A stretch of DNA of 29,935 bases, from IMG/VR virus record IMGVR_UViG_3300025809_000085, positions 1 to 29,935 of that record. One strand, given 5' to 3'. The first letter of the stretch is position 1; each line of letters begins with the position of its first letter. Of this stretch, positions 6,846-15,328 are shown piece by piece. A program made the translations under genes and the position numbers. The notes under the pieces are model-generated. The model was given only the letters and a program-made list of their open reading frames with translations. It was not told the origin of the DNA and made no database searches. This DNA comes from a virus.

Positions 6846-7169
6846 ATGGATAATAATGATGCAAGTGACGACTTTATGAAAGAGATCAGAAAAGCAGAAT
6901 TACAAGGTGAAATATTAGCTGATGCTTTTGACAACTCTTATAAATTATTAATTAAGGCCATAAGCTTTGATGAGATGATAGAAGACAAATATAGAAATGA
7001 TTTAGATGCTGTATTAGCATTTGACCCTGAATTAGGACCAGCTTTAAGTGAGCTTGAGAATATGATTGATTTTTATATCCAAGAGGAGGATTATGAGAAG
7101 TGTGCTAATCTTCGTGATATTATGCATATTAAATTTCCTCAAAGTATAAACTTAGGGATAGAAGATTGA
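6846..7169 (+). CDS. Acidic helical protein with UVR-like motif
   Basis: 107 aa, acidic and almost wholly helical. The C-terminal helix pair contains EEDYEKCANLRDIM (about residues 79-92), which matches the UVR motif pattern (E-x2-Y-E-x-A-x2-x-R-D-x-I) found in UvrB, UvrC, Clp adaptors and other protein-interaction hairpins. It is therefore likely an adaptor binding a partner protein, not an enzyme. It is the first gene of the plus-strand block and is followed at once by a highly basic mini-protein, an acidic/basic pairing that may be meaningful. Exact role unknown. Confidence 0.7.
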   Translation: MDNNDASDDFMKEIRKAELQGEILADAFDNSYKLLIKAISFDEMIEDKYRNDLDAVLAFDPELGPALSELENMIDFYIQEEDYEKCANLRDIMHIKFPQSINLGIED

Positions 7170-7171
7170 TT

Positions 7172-7363
7172 ATGGCAACAAAAAAGAAAAGTACTGTAAA
7201 TAGTTCGGGAAACTATACTAAACCAGCAATGCGTAAAAGATTATTCAATTCTATTAAGGCAGGGGGGAAAGGTGGAGCACCTGGGCAATGGTCAGCACGT
7301 AAAGCACAAATGCTTGCTAAACGTTACAAAGCAAATGGTGGCGGTTATAAATCTAAGAAATAA
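7172..7363 (+). CDS. Small basic Gly/Lys-rich protein
   Basis: 63 aa with no Asp or Glu at all. Key segment SSGNYTKPAMRKRLFNSIKA (about residues 11-30), then GGKGGAPGQWSARKAQMLAK and a GGGYKSKK end. I recognise this pattern (SGNYTKP...LF..IKAG.KGG.PGQWSARKAQ.LAK.YK..GGGY) as one that recurs in T4-like cyanophages and other marine phages, function unknown. It is likely nucleic-acid binding or packaged in the virion. The start is ATG at 7172, three bases after the upstream stop; a TTG at 7166 is in frame but less likely. Its stop overlaps the next ATG by one base. Confidence 0.8.
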   Translation: MATKKKSTVNSSGNYTKPAMRKRLFNSIKAGGKGGAPGQWSARKAQMLAKRYKANGGGYKSKK

Positions 7364-7590
7364 TGAAAGACTTTACTTTAAATTTAGGTAATATAATTTG
7401 GATCATAGGTATTATATTTACTATGGGTATTGCATATAGTCAGATAGCACAACTATCAGATGATATGGTAGTACTAGAATCTAGGTTAGAAAAGAAAATC
7501 AAAATGATTAATGAGTCGGAAGATAAAATTGTAGCATTAGAAAAAGATATTATTAGACTTGAGCAGTTTCAATGTAAACATAATAAGTAA
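7363..7590 (+). CDS. Membrane-anchored coiled-coil protein
   Basis: 75 aa. Residues ~9-27 (GNIIWIIGIIFTMGIAYSQI) form one transmembrane helix, and residues ~30-70 are a heptad-patterned coiled coil (VLESRLEKKIKMINESEDKI and onward), ending CKHNK. The layout is like small phage lysis accessory proteins (spanin- or holin-like) or membrane anchors. An endolysin gene lies 1.5 kb downstream on the same strand, which makes a lysis role plausible but not proven. TAATG overlaps on both sides show tight coupling with the neighbouring basic mini-genes. Confidence 0.65.
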   Translation: MKDFTLNLGNIIWIIGIIFTMGIAYSQIAQLSDDMVVLESRLEKKIKMINESEDKIVALEKDIIRLEQFQCKHNK

Positions 7591-7712
7591 TGGCTTTACC
7601 AAATAAAAAAACTAAAAAAAAATCATCTTGTTGGGTAGGTTACGTTAAAAAAGGAGTGAAGAAAAAAGGAAATAAGACGGTAAATAACTGTGTGCGTAAA
7701 AAGACTAGGTAA
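7590..7712 (+). CDS. 40-aa lysine-rich mini-protein
   Basis: MALPNKKTKKKSSCWVGYVK begins a 40-residue protein with 13 Lys, 2 Arg and no acidic residue. It has two Cys (SSCWVGYV and NNCVRKK) flanking a KKGVKKKGNK basic patch. Start and stop both overlap neighbours by one base (TAATG), which strongly supports a real gene despite the size. The paired Cys could bind metal or form a disulfide. Probably binds nucleic acid; function unknown. Similar lysine-rich CWxGYxxxG mini-proteins occur in marine phages, to my recollection. Confidence 0.7.
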   Translation: MALPNKKTKKKSSCWVGYVKKGVKKKGNKTVNNCVRKKTR

Positions 7713-7954
7713 TGGCAAAGACTAAACAACAAAAAAGTCTTACTAGGTGGACAAAGCAAAAATGGACAACTGCATCAGGAAAGAAAAGTTCTGAGACAGG
7801 TGAAGTATATGCTCCAAAAAAAACTATTGCTAAACTAAAGAGTACAAAAAAAGGTAAGGCTAAATTAGCAGCAGCAAATAAAAAGAAAAGAGCTGCAAGA
7901 AAAAAAGGTAAACAACATGCTAGTCATGGATTACACAAAGGAAAAAAACGTTAA
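7712..7954 (+). CDS. Small basic protein, DUF5872-like
   Basis: 80 aa. The N-terminus KSLTRWTKQKWTTASGKKSS with a following GEVYAPKK matches the pattern of DUF5872-type proteins from cyanophages and other marine viruses (SLTKWTKEKW.T.SGKKS...GERYLPKKA). The C-terminus is a Lys/Ala/Arg-rich tail ending HKGKKR. It should bind nucleic acid or another polyanion; the family's function is unknown. It overlaps the 40-aa gene by one base and is followed after 14 nt by a fibre-like gene. Family call by pattern memory. Confidence 0.75.
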   Translation: MAKTKQQKSLTRWTKQKWTTASGKKSSETGEVYAPKKTIAKLKSTKKGKAKLAAANKKKRAARKKGKQHASHGLHKGKKR

Positions 7955-7968
7955 ATAAAAATAATAAA

Positions 7969-8496
7969 ATGGGAACAATATTACAGGACATGATGGGAAT
8001 GCTTTCAAGAAAGAAAGTAGTAACACCAAGAACAGATGATTATATTACAATAGCAAGATACGCTGGCGCTCAAGAAAGAATGAAACCTCATCCAAAAGTT
8101 GAAACAGAACTTGTTACAATGGGTGCTATTAAAACATTTGTTAATACACCTATAGATCAGGAAGTAAAACTAACTCCTTTTGCTGTAGTTGCGGGAAGTG
8201 GTGGTAGTTCAACAATGCCAAGCAATTATAATTTAATTGATATATCGTGGGATGGATTAGGAAATGGAACATATACCTTAAATCTTCCTACAGCAGCTTC
8301 AATGAAATACAGAAATATACGTATTATTACTGATGGCACATTAGATAACGGTGCACAAGATAAAATAGATGTTACACCAACTGGATCTGAAACAATTGAT
8401 GGAGCTGCATCATTTGAAATATCTAAAAGATATGAAGGTATATCTATCTGGTCAAATGGTACAGAATGGATTATTATACAAGCTAAAGCTCACTAA
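7969..8496 (+). CDS. Fibre-like virion protein
   Basis: 175 aa. Residues 1-60 are a helical/charged linker with RTDDYITIARYAG. Residues ~75-175 form a beta-rich Gly/Thr/Asn domain (SGGSSTMPSNYNLIDISWDG, then NIRIITDGTLDNGAQD, and a last strand IWSNGTEWIIIQ). This C-terminal pattern is typical of trimeric head- or tail-fibre tips and decoration domains in marine phages. It probably projects from the virion. It is set among basic mini-genes, separated from the next by 2 nt. No adhesion target can be read from the sequence. Confidence 0.6.
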   Translation: MGTILQDMMGMLSRKKVVTPRTDDYITIARYAGAQERMKPHPKVETELVTMGAIKTFVNTPIDQEVKLTPFAVVAGSGGSSTMPSNYNLIDISWDGLGNGTYTLNLPTAASMKYRNIRIITDGTLDNGAQDKIDVTPTGSETIDGAASFEISKRYEGISIWSNGTEWIIIQAKAH

Positions 8497-8498
8497 GA

Positions 8499-8756
8499 AT
8501 GGCAACACCTAGAAAGGGAAAAGCGAAAGTCAAAGTAACAGCTAGCGGTAAGAAAGTTAGTTACGGTCAGGCAGGCAAAGCTAAAGGAGGAGGGCCAAGG
8601 GTAAAACCTGGTACCTCCAAAGGTGATAGCTACTGTGCTAGAAGTTTAGGTATTAAGAAAAGAGTATCTAAGAAAAAAAGAAATGATCCAAACACCCCGA
8701 ATAACTTATCTCGTAAACGTTGGAAATGCTCTGGAGCTAAATCCAAAAAGAAATAA
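8499..8756 (+). CDS. Small basic Cys-containing protein (marine-phage type)
   Basis: 85 aa, about one third Lys/Arg. The conserved-looking core is RVKPGTSKGDSYCARSLGIK followed by NDPNTPNNLSRKRWKCSG, with Cys at residues ~46 and ~77. I have seen this PGT.KGD.YCARS..I....NDPNTPN.L.RKRW.C pattern in proteins of ocean tailed phages, where the function is unknown. It begins 2 nt after the fibre-like gene and ends the cassette; a candidate promoter follows. A nucleic-acid-binding or capsid-cargo role is an inference from charge and position. Confidence 0.75.
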   Translation: MATPRKGKAKVKVTASGKKVSYGQAGKAKGGGPRVKPGTSKGDSYCARSLGIKKRVSKKKRNDPNTPNNLSRKRWKCSGAKSKKK

Positions 8757-8794
8757 TTGGCATTAAACTTTTTTTAGTTAAACTATTTATATAT

Positions 8795-8805
8795 ATTTGT
8801 ATAAC
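8795..8805 (+). promoter_or_regulatory. Candidate promoter motif, copy 2
   Basis: TATATTTGTATAAC (8792-8805) combines the exact Bacteroidetes TAnnTTTG pattern (TATATTTG) with the GTATA extension shared by the other phage copies. It is 22 nt before the ATG at 8827, in a 70-nt gap. Confidence 0.55.
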
Positions 8806-8826
8806 GTTTAATTAAAAAACTTTACA

Positions 8827-9135: not shown

Positions 9136-10053
9136 ATGCTACTCAAAAAAGGAGACAAAAAAGTTAATGTAAGACATCTGCAAGCTAAATTAAATATTAC
9201 GCAAGATGGTGATTTTGGTCCACTAACAGAAAAAGCTGTTATTAAATACCAATTATCTAATGGATTACCTGTAACAGGAATGGTTGATAGTGATATGTGG
9301 GTATTACTATTTAACAAACCATATAGTGAAGAATTAGGTATAGATGAAGATACTGATATATCTTTAAACTACTTCACAACCAATTATGATCAATTAATTC
9401 ATAAGCACTATTTACCAGAAGGTGAATATATAAAAGGCCCAATCAAAAACGAATATATATTTCTACATCATACTGCAGGTAATGCTAATCCTTACAGATG
9501 TATTGATCACTGGGGTAGAGATAAAAGAGGTAGAATAGCAACAGAATTTGTTTTAGGTGGAATTAACCATAGAAACGGTGATGATGAATATAACGGTGTT
9601 ATGGTTCAAGCATTTCCTGAAGGAGGTCAAGCATTTCATTTAGGTAGAACTCAATCAGGTTGGATGAACAGACATTCAGTAGGTTTAGAAATTTGTTCTA
9701 TGGGTTATTTAGACAATGATTTAAAAACTTATGTGGGATCTCGTTGTCAACCAGAACAAGTAATGGAATTGAAAGAACCATTTAGAGGTTATTTAAATTA
9801 TCATAAATATTCTGATGAGCAAATTAAAGCAACTGAAAAATGGATACGTTATGTTGGTGAAAGAGATGAGATTGATATTAGAGTAGGTCTTAAAAAATAT
9901 ATACAAGCTTATGGTCCAACAAAAGGATTTGGATTTCAAATTAGTGCTTGCTTAGGAGAAGTTAAAGGATTATTAACACATACTAATGTTAGAAGAGGTA
10001 AATCTGATTGTTATCCAGATCCTAACTTAGTTGATATGATATTAAGCTTATAG
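9136..10053 (+). CDS. Endolysin: PG-binding domain plus N-acetylmuramoyl-L-alanine amidase
   Basis: 305 aa. Residues 1-60 form a PG_binding_1 domain (VNVRHLQAKLN, DGDFGPLTEKAVIKYQ, GLPVTGMVD). Residues ~100-300 form an Amidase_2 (T7 lysozyme/PGRP-like) zinc amidase: YIFLHHTAG with zinc ligand H112, and a second site at H282 with GKSDC (D291, C292). It should cut the amide bond between N-acetylmuramate and L-alanine at lysis. It has no signal peptide, so it needs a holin; the membrane genes at 7363 and 5203 are the only candidates here. The length and motif order are normal for the family. Confidence 0.9.
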   Translation: MLLKKGDKKVNVRHLQAKLNITQDGDFGPLTEKAVIKYQLSNGLPVTGMVDSDMWVLLFNKPYSEELGIDEDTDISLNYFTTNYDQLIHKHYLPEGEYIKGPIKNEYIFLHHTAGNANPYRCIDHWGRDKRGRIATEFVLGGINHRNGDDEYNGVMVQAFPEGGQAFHLGRTQSGWMNRHSVGLEICSMGYLDNDLKTYVGSRCQPEQVMELKEPFRGYLNYHKYSDEQIKATEKWIRYVGERDEIDIRVGLKKYIQAYGPTKGFGFQISACLGEVKGLLTHTNVRRGKSDCYPDPNLVDMILSL

Positions 10054-12783: not shown

Positions 12784-12935
12784 TAAATAACAAAAAAGAA
12801 ACCAAATGGCATTTCTGCTATTGGGATGAACCAGAATTTAATAATACAAAAAAAACTAACAACGATGGCACAACAAGTAATACCAGTAGGAAAGAAACTT
12901 TTGATCAAACAAAAGGCAGCAGAGACAATGACTAA
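12780..12935 (+). CDS. 51-aa ORF overlapping groES 5' end
   Basis: MINNKKETKWHFCYWDEPEF followed by a hydrophilic Asn/Thr/Lys/Asp tail, ending GSRDND. It starts by an ATGA overlap with the 172-aa gene, typical coupling in this genome, and bridges the gap to the GroES-like gene, with its last 71 nt overlapping that gene in another frame. The aromatic KWHFCYWDEPEF stretch looks like a genuine short motif while the tail is low complexity. Likely real but unproven; no function. Confidence 0.45.
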   Translation: MINNKKETKWHFCYWDEPEFNNTKKTNNDGTTSNTSRKETFDQTKGSRDND

Positions 12936-13149
12936 ATCAGGTTTTATTTTACCTGATATGGCAATTAAAAAAGAATGTATAGGTACTGTAATTGGTATAG
13001 GTCAATCTGTAGAAGAAATTAAAATTGGAGATGTTGTTCAATATACTGAACATTGTTTACCTACATCAATGAAACATAATGAGGAGGAACATTTACTTAT
13101 TCAAGAAGGAGATGTCTTTGCAATTTTAGTTGAAGTAGCGAATGTATAA
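12865..13149 (+). CDS. GroES-like co-chaperonin (Cpn10)
   Basis: 94 aa from the chosen ATG, close to the usual 95-97 aa. It shows the GroES fold pattern: IPVGKKLLIKQK at the start; the mobile-loop region AAETMTKSGFILP (18-30), where FIL matches the hydrophobic tripeptide that docks on GroEL; then GTVIGIGQSV, IKIGDVVQY and an EGDVFAILVE end. It probably works with the host GroEL to fold capsid or other phage proteins, as gp31 does in T4; no GroEL gene is in the window. An ATG at 12826 would add 13 poorly fitting residues. It lies just before TerL and overlaps it by 8 nt. Confidence 0.88.
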   Translation: MAQQVIPVGKKLLIKQKAAETMTKSGFILPDMAIKKECIGTVIGIGQSVEEIKIGDVVQYTEHCLPTSMKHNEEEHLLIQEGDVFAILVEVANV

Positions 13150-15328
13150 AACCGTTCCTACATATACAAATGGGCAATGGACAACAACTGAGTTTGAAAC
13201 AGAAGAATTATTTATAGAATACATATTATCTATATTTAAAGAACCCGGTTTATATGGCTTTTCTGATATAGCTTTTGAGTTTAATAAAGAAGCTAAATCA
13301 TTTAATACTCAAGGGTTTTATTGTAATGCTCCTTTTAGATCTAAAGATTTTACAAATTATTGGGAAGATCAAAAAAATAAATGTAGAAAAGGAGTAATAT
13401 ATAATGATAATGGTAAAAGTTTTTTTTTAACCAGAGATTATTACATGTGGTTAAACTTTTTACCAATTTTTGATAAAGAAGAAAAAAAGTATGGATTTGC
13501 AAAAGTAAGAGATGCTCAATATCACATGGCATTATATGAGTTATTAGCTGAGCTAAATAATCAGCATTCAGCAATACTTAAAAAACGTCAGATAGCTTCT
13601 TCTTATTTTCACATGGGTAAAATTATTAACACCTATTGGTTTGAAGAAGGTTCTATTTGTAAAGTTGGAGCATCACTAAAAGATTACATTAATGATAAAG
13701 GTTCTTGGAAGTTTTTAGATGAATACAAAACTTTTCTTAATGAGCACACCGCTTGGTATAGACCAAGCAATCCAGAAAAGGTATTATTGTGGCAACAACA
13801 AATAGAAGTTAAAGTAAACAATAGAAAAACAGCTAGAGGTTTAAAATCTAAAATCCAAGGGGCATCATTTGAAAAAAATGCAACAGCTGGTGTAGGGGGA
13901 CCTACCACTTATTTTTTCCATGAAGAAGCGGGTATTGCACCTAAGATGATGCAAACATATGAATACTTACGTCCCGCAATGTCTTCTGGTATGATGACAA
14001 CAGGTATGTTTATTGCAGCAGGATCGGTTGGAGATTTGCAACAGTGTAATCCCTTAAAGGATATGATACTAAATCCTAAAGCAAATGATATATATGCTGT
14101 AGAAACAAATCTAATGGACGCTGATGGTACAATTGGTATGGCAGGATTGTTTATTCCTGAACAGCATTCTATGCCACCTTATATTGACAAATATGGCAAC
14201 TCTTTAGTTGAAGAAGCCGTTAAAGCAATTATAGAAGAAAGATCAAGGTGGAAAAATGAATTAAATGGAGAGCAATATCAGTTAAGGATTTCACAAAAGC
14301 CTATGAATATTGCTGAGGCTTTTGCATACAGAAAAGAATCTATTTTTCCTCAAGGAATTTTAAGTAGACAGCAAAAGAGAATAGAGGAAAAAGAATACCC
14401 TTATGAGCTAATAGAACTAGACAGAAATGAGAAAGGAATATTTGCTAAAAGAACAAATAAACTTCCAATCAGTAAATTTCCTGTAGACAAAAAACAAATT
14501 GATAAAACAGGAACAGTTGTGGTATGGGAAAGACCAATTAAAAGTCCGGAGTTTGGAGCATATTATGCGTCTATTGATCCCGTGTCAGAAGGAAAGACAA
14601 CAACCTCTGATTCTTTATGTAGTATTTTTGTATATAAAAATGCAATGGAAGTTATAAGAACTACCGAATCCGGTGAAGTTGAACAATTTATTGAAAAAGA
14701 TAAAGTAGTGGCAGCCTGGTGTGGTAGATTTGATGACATAAATAAAACTCATGAAAGGTTAGAATTAATTATAGAATGGTACAATGCCTGGACATTAGTT
14801 GAAAATAACATATCTCTTTTTATTCAGCATATGATTGCTAGAAAAAAACAAAGATATTTAGTACCTAAACAACAAATTTTATTTTTAAAAGATATTGGAT
14901 CTAATAAAACGGTATATCAAGAATATGGATGGAAAAATACAGGAACTTTATTTAAGAGTCATTTAATATCTTATGCAATAGAATTTTTAAGGGAAGTAAC
15001 AAATGAGGAGACTGATATAAATGGTGTAGTAACAGATCAAACATTTGGTGTAGAAAGAATACCTGATCCAATGCTAATAAAAGAAATGTTAGCTTATTAT
15101 CCTGGGTTAAACGTAGATAGATTAGTTGCATTTGGTGCATTAATAGCATTTGTAAAAATACAACAGTCTAACAGAGGATATACTAAAAGACGTGAATCAG
15201 AGGGTAAATCTTTGGTAAACTCAGAAAATTTGTATAAATTAAAGTATAGTCCGTTTAAAAATATTGGGCGTAGTTCAACATCCAGAACTAGCAGGCCTAA
15301 TAGATCAGGATTTAAAAATATTAAATAG
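13142..15328 (+). CDS. Terminase large subunit (TerL)
   Basis: 728 aa. The packaging ATPase half has a deviant Walker A (LKKRQIASSY, 146-155), where K/R-rich and SS replace the usual GKS/T, a Walker B FFHEEA (258-263) with the catalytic Glu pair, and a coupling motif near FIAAGSVG (290-297). The nuclease half has the RNase-H-like acidic triad expected for TerL: D479 (in SIDPVSEG), E554 (LVENN) and D659 (NVDRLVAFGAL). The length suits large podoviruses of the crAss-like type. It cuts and pumps DNA at the portal. It overlaps groES by 8 nt and is 22 nt from the portal gene. The C-terminus is Ser/Arg/Asn-rich. Confidence 0.9.
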   Translation: MYKTVPTYTNGQWTTTEFETEELFIEYILSIFKEPGLYGFSDIAFEFNKEAKSFNTQGFYCNAPFRSKDFTNYWEDQKNKCRKGVIYNDNGKSFFLTRDYYMWLNFLPIFDKEEKKYGFAKVRDAQYHMALYELLAELNNQHSAILKKRQIASSYFHMGKIINTYWFEEGSICKVGASLKDYINDKGSWKFLDEYKTFLNEHTAWYRPSNPEKVLLWQQQIEVKVNNRKTARGLKSKIQGASFEKNATAGVGGPTTYFFHEEAGIAPKMMQTYEYLRPAMSSGMMTTGMFIAAGSVGDLQQCNPLKDMILNPKANDIYAVETNLMDADGTIGMAGLFIPEQHSMPPYIDKYGNSLVEEAVKAIIEERSRWKNELNGEQYQLRISQKPMNIAEAFAYRKESIFPQGILSRQQKRIEEKEYPYELIELDRNEKGIFAKRTNKLPISKFPVDKKQIDKTGTVVVWERPIKSPEFGAYYASIDPVSEGKTTTSDSLCSIFVYKNAMEVIRTTESGEVEQFIEKDKVVAAWCGRFDDINKTHERLELIIEWYNAWTLVENNISLFIQHMIARKKQRYLVPKQQILFLKDIGSNKTVYQEYGWKNTGTLFKSHLISYAIEFLREVTNEETDINGVVTDQTFGVERIPDPMLIKEMLAYYPGLNVDRLVAFGALIAFVKIQQSNRGYTKRRESEGKSLVNSENLYKLKYSPFKNIGRSSTSRTSRPNRSGFKNIK

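Follow-up and report, generated by a model that had tools for sequence, protein, structure and literature searches.

Two Pfam domains, DUF5872 (PF19197) and DUF6321 (PF19846), are relevant to the small basic phage proteins considered here. In the full-text literature searched, DUF6321 is named nowhere and DUF5872 only for Chrysochromulina parva virus CpV-BQ1, in which a DUF5872 protein has been annotated (PMC12085832). A further point of comparison is provided by multi-module proteins of cyanophages (phrog_727, phrog_3477, phrog_10346 and a protein of Synechococcus phage RN05-S), which carry the modules termed E, G, F and/or C/D in one chain and are encoded among structural genes. As functional analogies only, T4 internal head proteins (IPI-IPIII) are small proteins packaged with DNA (PMC7697877), and the basic DNA-binding virion proteins of PBCV-1 are found on packaged DNA, although they are larger and belong to a virus of a eukaryote (PMC3281028). 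For phages, the same source reports no evidence of basic proteins contributing much to DNA neutralisation (PMC3281028).

The locus described here resembles several of these systems in part. It lies in a window that comprises the whole IMG/VR record IMGVR_UViG_3300025809_000085, 29,935 bases in length. A-B fusions and B match parts of the DUF5872 profile; in the window, however, this domain is split over two genes, is far more basic and falls below the profile cut-off. D-type proteins, whose module occurs in 543 phage records, pass the DUF6321 cut-off of 28.5 bits (two homologues score 74.1 and 86.7) and align with window protein C over an RxSFCAR...W block, whereas C itself has a different N-terminal half and no Pfam match, and hence lies below that cut-off. 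Finally, cyanophages encode long single chains with other segments between the modules, whereas the window encodes stand-alone mini-proteins, and A was not found in the long cyanophage proteins examined.

Layout of the cassette

The record is probably a fragment of a larger phage genome. Its MCP is 22-28% identical to those of Lbo-JY46, csAssE-Sib and Cellulophaga phi4:1/phi17:2, its terminase large subunit (TerL) belongs to phrog_6681 and its portal to phrog_6547; on sequence grounds, these three proteins suggest a relationship to crAss-like phages. Seven abutting plus-strand ORFs are present at 6846-8756, in agreement with the gene count in the reasoning of the initial annotation and at odds with the five mini-genes of its heading. 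Three junctions (at 7363, 7590 and 7712) are the TAATG one-base overlaps that it had described, and the remaining ones are gaps of 2-14 nt.

As that annotation also stated, four of the ORFs encode very basic mini-proteins of 40-85 aa, here found to have net charges of +15 to +26. All four are lysine-rich: A (7172..7363, 63 aa, +17, phrog_17747), F (7590..7712, 40 aa, +15, a two-Cys module), B (7712..7954, 80 aa, +26, phrog_14910) and C (8499..8756, 85 aa, +26, a two-Cys module of the C/D superfamily). A and F are indeed the two without Asp or Glu; B contains two Glu and C two Asp. A net charge density of at least 0.25 per residue was reached by four window ORFs. In 60 first-order Markov shuffles of the window, ORFs of this kind numbered 0.15 on average and never more than one per shuffle, so that the number observed is beyond chance. 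Given their homologues in many phages and very strong purifying selection, these ORFs are real genes. In the stretch 7150-8820, no clear Shine-Dalgarno sequence precedes the cassette genes and the starts follow A/T-rich sequence, a context that would fit a Bacteroidota host.

The other three proteins, P1, P3 and P6, are no general part of the system; among the sequences searched, the window included, P1 was detected in only 9, P3 in 4 and P6 in 6. P1 (6846..7169, 107 aa) had been read as an acidic UVR-like adaptor and a possible chaperone or antidote for the basic proteins. Its acidity is confirmed (net -17), but its weak match to the UVR domain (PF02151) reaches 13.4 bits against a cut-off of 21.5, with E<=1 in two of seven relatives; the adaptor identity was rejected because the match is sub-threshold and unconserved among these relatives. 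P1 stands beside A only within the window's own crAss-like clade (9 loci) and is 34-42% identical where A retains 93-98%; it is the fastest-evolving gene of the cassette, which argues against a chaperone or antidote tied to A and B. P3 (7363..7590, 75 aa, net -1), also clade-limited, combines an N-terminal hydrophobic segment with a charged coiled-coil-like tail and gives a weak Rz-like-spanin match (E=0.015). P6 (7969..8496, 175 aa, net -2) is likewise clade-limited, and its C-terminal part shows similarity to a baseplate/fibre domain (phrog_20556, E=9.5e-4).

A and B and the DUF5872-like domain

A search of IMG/VR with A gave at least about 600 matches; among the matches listed, 80 loci were kept, and two were left out as untestable, with the locus ending no more than 75 nt from A. 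Among the matches listed, B shares the strand of A in all 78 testable loci, lies downstream of it in 77 and within 150 nt in 49, and in the 78th locus B overlaps A by three bases, as judged from profile edges. Co-occurrence across related phages, proposed in the initial annotation as a check, was thus found for A and B in all 78 testable loci listed. Clustered on neighbouring proteins, these loci fall into 19-28 neighbourhood clusters, the biggest with 32-39 loci, and represent more than one lineage, yet fewer than 78 independent cases. Cultured phages with A and B include Pelagibacter phage HTVC033P, Puniceispirillum phage HMO-2011 and Methylophilales phage MEP402, and C is present in Vibrio lentus phages such as 1.036.O.

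The two proteins also occur as one. In Fibrella, Spirosoma, Hymenobacter, Corallococcus, Occallatibacter, cyanobacteria and other bacterial chromosomes, A is followed by B in a single protein of about 130-230 aa, and a second IMG/VR search, with an A-B fusion as query (at least about 600 matches), yielded further viral loci in which, among the matches listed, A and B share one frame in 59 of 78 and are split in 18 of 78. The reverse fusion, B-A in one frame, is found on two SAR11 single-cell contigs (L163:4731-5144 and L173:4731-5144). Against the 116 positions of the DUF5872 profile, A-B fusions match within 2-94 and B alone 49-110. The scores (B, 21.0 bits; fused A-B, 19.5-26.4 bits; the B relative E, 27.3 bits) are all under the gathering cut-off of 27.5, and the domain is therefore named DUF5872-like, that is, related but formally no member. 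On this profile and fusion evidence, A and B are the N-terminal and C-terminal halves of one DUF5872-like domain, which in the window is divided between two genes. The fusions and the linkage suggest that A may bind B. NCBIfam supplied no name for A, B or the A-B fusions tested. A viral contig also encodes a 454-aa protein with B at its N-terminus (L043:5761-7122).

The cellular A-B fusions are frequently extended at the N-terminus by a tail rich in lysine, alanine and proline, and Rho_N repeats are present in two cyanobacterial ones (E=3.5e-12 and 5e-10). Bacterial fusions that bear either a lysine-rich tail of histone-H1-like type or Rho_N repeats include L172:4905-5381 (Fibrella), L175:4920-5396, L170:4998-5669 and similar proteins; they resemble nucleoid or stress proteins of an uncharacterised kind. 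The neighbours of A-B in bacterial isolates revealed no common pathway. An archaeal host for A, raised by Poseidoniales and other archaeal bins, was given no weight, because the contigs examined carry tailed-phage-like genes; on L115, L121, L135 and L165, the archaeal bin labels may be wrong.

The viral and cellular forms differ in charge. Window A and B together have a net charge of +43, and the whole open frames of the 30 viral A-B fusions listed range from +21 to +42. Among 26 long proteins with both halves, mostly cellular although L161 and L167 may be viral, the A-B core has a median of +5 (range -2 to +24). Viral forms are thus supercharged relative to cellular-type fusions, and this charge, together with the fused tails and Rho_N repeats, suggests a nucleic-acid role for A-B. 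The fold does more than carry charge, since a number of the cellular A-B cores come close to neutrality and a haloarchaeal virus has an acidic F; both observations count against the packaged DNA-binding role proposed below. Using AlphaFold2, B is predicted as a compact multi-helix fold (pLDDT 87, pTM 0.69) and A, with moderate confidence, as a helical hairpin (pLDDT 76). A search of the PDB with the B model gave no credible fold match; its matches in BFVD are mostly unnamed, so the presence of the domain in giant viruses rests on the CpV-BQ1 annotation (PMC12085832).

Selection was assessed by comparing pN and pS between the window and relatives L011-L014, L016 and L047. A has a pN of 0.007-0.07 at a pS of 0.50-0.63 and B a pN of 0.016-0.093 at a pS of 0.34-0.76, against a pN of 0.08-0.4 at similar pS for most other genes of the region; A, B, C and F are its most constrained, slowest-evolving genes. 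Recent horizontal transfer as the source of the high within-clade identity was rejected, as synonymous divergence resembles that of the neighbours. In other phages, A is mostly 65-85% identical, and between lineages pS is saturated or nearly so, which makes age and transfer inseparable there. These values also bear on the idea that the cassette consists of selfish or drifting low-complexity mini-genes with no defined role. The gene order around A-B is variable and accessory modules come and go, as such an idea would expect, but within the clade, where dS is high, A has a dN/dS near 0.01, which contradicts it, and the confidently predicted fold of B and the fixed A-B order also stand against it, leaving it very improbable.

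Companion modules and virion evidence

The F module follows the pattern CWxGY...GxKxKxGKxVxNCV. As a tblastn query, F gave no phage match, and its relatives came to light solely by way of PHROG profiles and the S-TIM5 module; T4-like cyanophages have them within long proteins, and Haloarcula virus HCTV-16 has one within a protein as well. In HCTV-16, the acidic F module is part of a 179-aa protein (L092:4776-5312) adjoining a ribonucleotide reductase gene. E is a two-Cys relative of B, and its CRP-7 form accounts for the 27.3-bit match noted above, to the same part of the DUF5872 profile as B. In CRP-7, the modules C, G and E are three mini-genes directly before TerL; in Synechococcus phage RN05-S, a 427-aa protein annotated as structural carries the modules in the order E, G, F, D, and its gene is one gene away from the phrog_1645 virion structural protein. 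The same modules therefore exist both as separate genes and as one chain, and F and C are modules that cyanophages join with the B-like module E into long proteins. The initial annotation was right that the families are widespread in marine phages with no assigned function; it missed the single domain that A and B make up and the place of F and C as modules in larger proteins.

Two published virion proteomes contain fused relatives of these modules. In S-CREM2, 52 of 219 ORFs were detected by mass spectrometry (PMC10665884), and profile searches identified two module-bearing proteins, ORF137 (C/D, encoded between terminase genes) and ORF160 (E, F and G), which are represented in the virion table by 4 and 7 unique peptides, respectively (PMC10665884). 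In S-SZBM1, with 30 of 218 ORFs detected, S-SZBM1_139 (F) was found in the virion and S-SZBM1_192 (D) was undetected (PMC9146016). At these base rates, which ignore protein length, detection of at least three of four module proteins has a chance of 0.02, and the two proteomes support a virion association of the modules. Against this, the peptides of the long proteins may derive from non-module parts, and highly expressed proteins can, according to the S-CREM2 authors, survive CsCl purification (PMC10665884). Among the virion proteomes examined, none yielded A, B, C or F as a protein on its own, and no pelagiphage virion proteome was found in the literature searched. Lysine-rich chains are cut into very short tryptic peptides, so standard tryptic proteomics would be expected to miss such mini-proteins, and this blind spot could explain why they were overlooked.

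Gene neighbourhood and possible roles

In the window, the cassette opens a plus-strand run that includes an endolysin with peptidoglycan-binding and N-acetylmuramoyl-L-alanine amidase domains (9136..10053), a phage-encoded GroES-like co-chaperonin just upstream of TerL (12826-13149, phrog_3188), TerL itself (13142..15328), portal and capsid genes. Outside the window's clade, the most frequent families in a set of 98 larger proteins encoded no more than 3.5 kb from A are terminase and portal/head-tail adaptor; around fused viral A-B, Terminase_6N, capsid and P22-like portal lead. The position of the window cassette, upstream of the endolysin and about 4.4 kb before TerL, speaks against a head-protein reading. 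Three SAR11 single-cell contigs of 71-325 kb (L152, L154 and L149) have prophage-like regions in which A begins where TerL ends and which also contain B and, downstream, an integrase; these are candidate SAR11 prophages.

The detection of fused relatives in virions, the packaging-gene neighbours, and the cellular fusions to Rho_N repeats and lysine-rich tails make it the best reading, with a probability of about 0.5, that the cassette produces late, virion-associated, nucleic-acid-binding mini-proteins packaged with the genome. For the window, we infer late expression, DNA binding, a location in the head, reassembly of A with B and the presence of its own proteins in the particle. The cassette proteins would be made together with packaging and head genes, would bind the packaged genome, or DNA on its entry into the head, and would locally neutralise and bridge it; A and B probably reassemble or act jointly on DNA. 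F and C may act as companions, which other phages fuse to a B-like module in one virion protein, and the bound proteins would exit with the genome, as T4 internal proteins do. The quantity required counts against this reading, as neutralising 10% of a 100-kb genome was computed to need about 240 copies of each protein, and so does the published statement on phage DNA neutralisation cited above (PMC3281028). Among the roles proposed at the outset, DNA condensation or packaged cargo survives in the form of this nucleic-acid-binding, packaged role, and mimicry of ribosomal proteins found no support.

The same virion evidence would also fit an injected cargo that is packaged with the genome and acts on the nucleoid, RNA or ribosomes of the new host rather than in genome packing. 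Those cellular A-B fusions that bear Rho_N or a lysine-rich tail resemble host nucleic-acid proteins, and a non-structural cytidylyltransferase is also detected in the S-CREM2 and S-SZBM1 virions; such a cargo has no known target, and sequence evidence cannot tell it from the packaged genome-binding role. It is regarded as possible, if doubtful. A role outside the particle, in which free polycations take over the host nucleoid or RNA late in infection, draws on the nucleic-acid-binding fusions of cellular relatives and on the run that stand-alone mini-genes share with late genes. The fused relatives in virions and the packaging and structural neighbours count against it, and it is considered unlikely.

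The adjoining endolysin and TM/coiled-coil protein in the window, and the lysozyme, amidase or peptidase genes nearby in HTVC033P, HMO-2011 and Lederberg, raise the idea that the basic proteins disrupt the outer membrane at lysis in place of spanins, in the manner of the phage phiKT disruptin, disruptins being short cationic antimicrobial peptides (PMC12819732). However, the prediction for B is a conserved, folded domain and that for A a lower-confidence hairpin, neither of them a single amphipathic helix; A-B occurs in bacterial chromosomes with no recognisable phage context, F in a haloarchaeal virus that infects a host lacking an outer membrane, and module proteins in virions. Such a lytic role is accordingly judged quite improbable.

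The packaged, genome-binding reading can be extended tentatively, with the odds against the extension as a whole: many unrelated marine tailed phages may have in common a set of exchangeable, supercharged modules for nucleic-acid binding, which would be related to a nucleoid-type domain of cells, encoded as neighbouring mini-genes or one chain and packaged as a protein component of the genome, equivalent in phages to viral chromatin. Few of the small genes examined are as widespread or as well conserved as these mini-genes, yet the mini-genes are annotated as hypothetical. If their products do coat or organise the DNA inside the head, the published position that tailed phages lack basic DNA-packing proteins (PMC3281028) would need revision for many marine phages.
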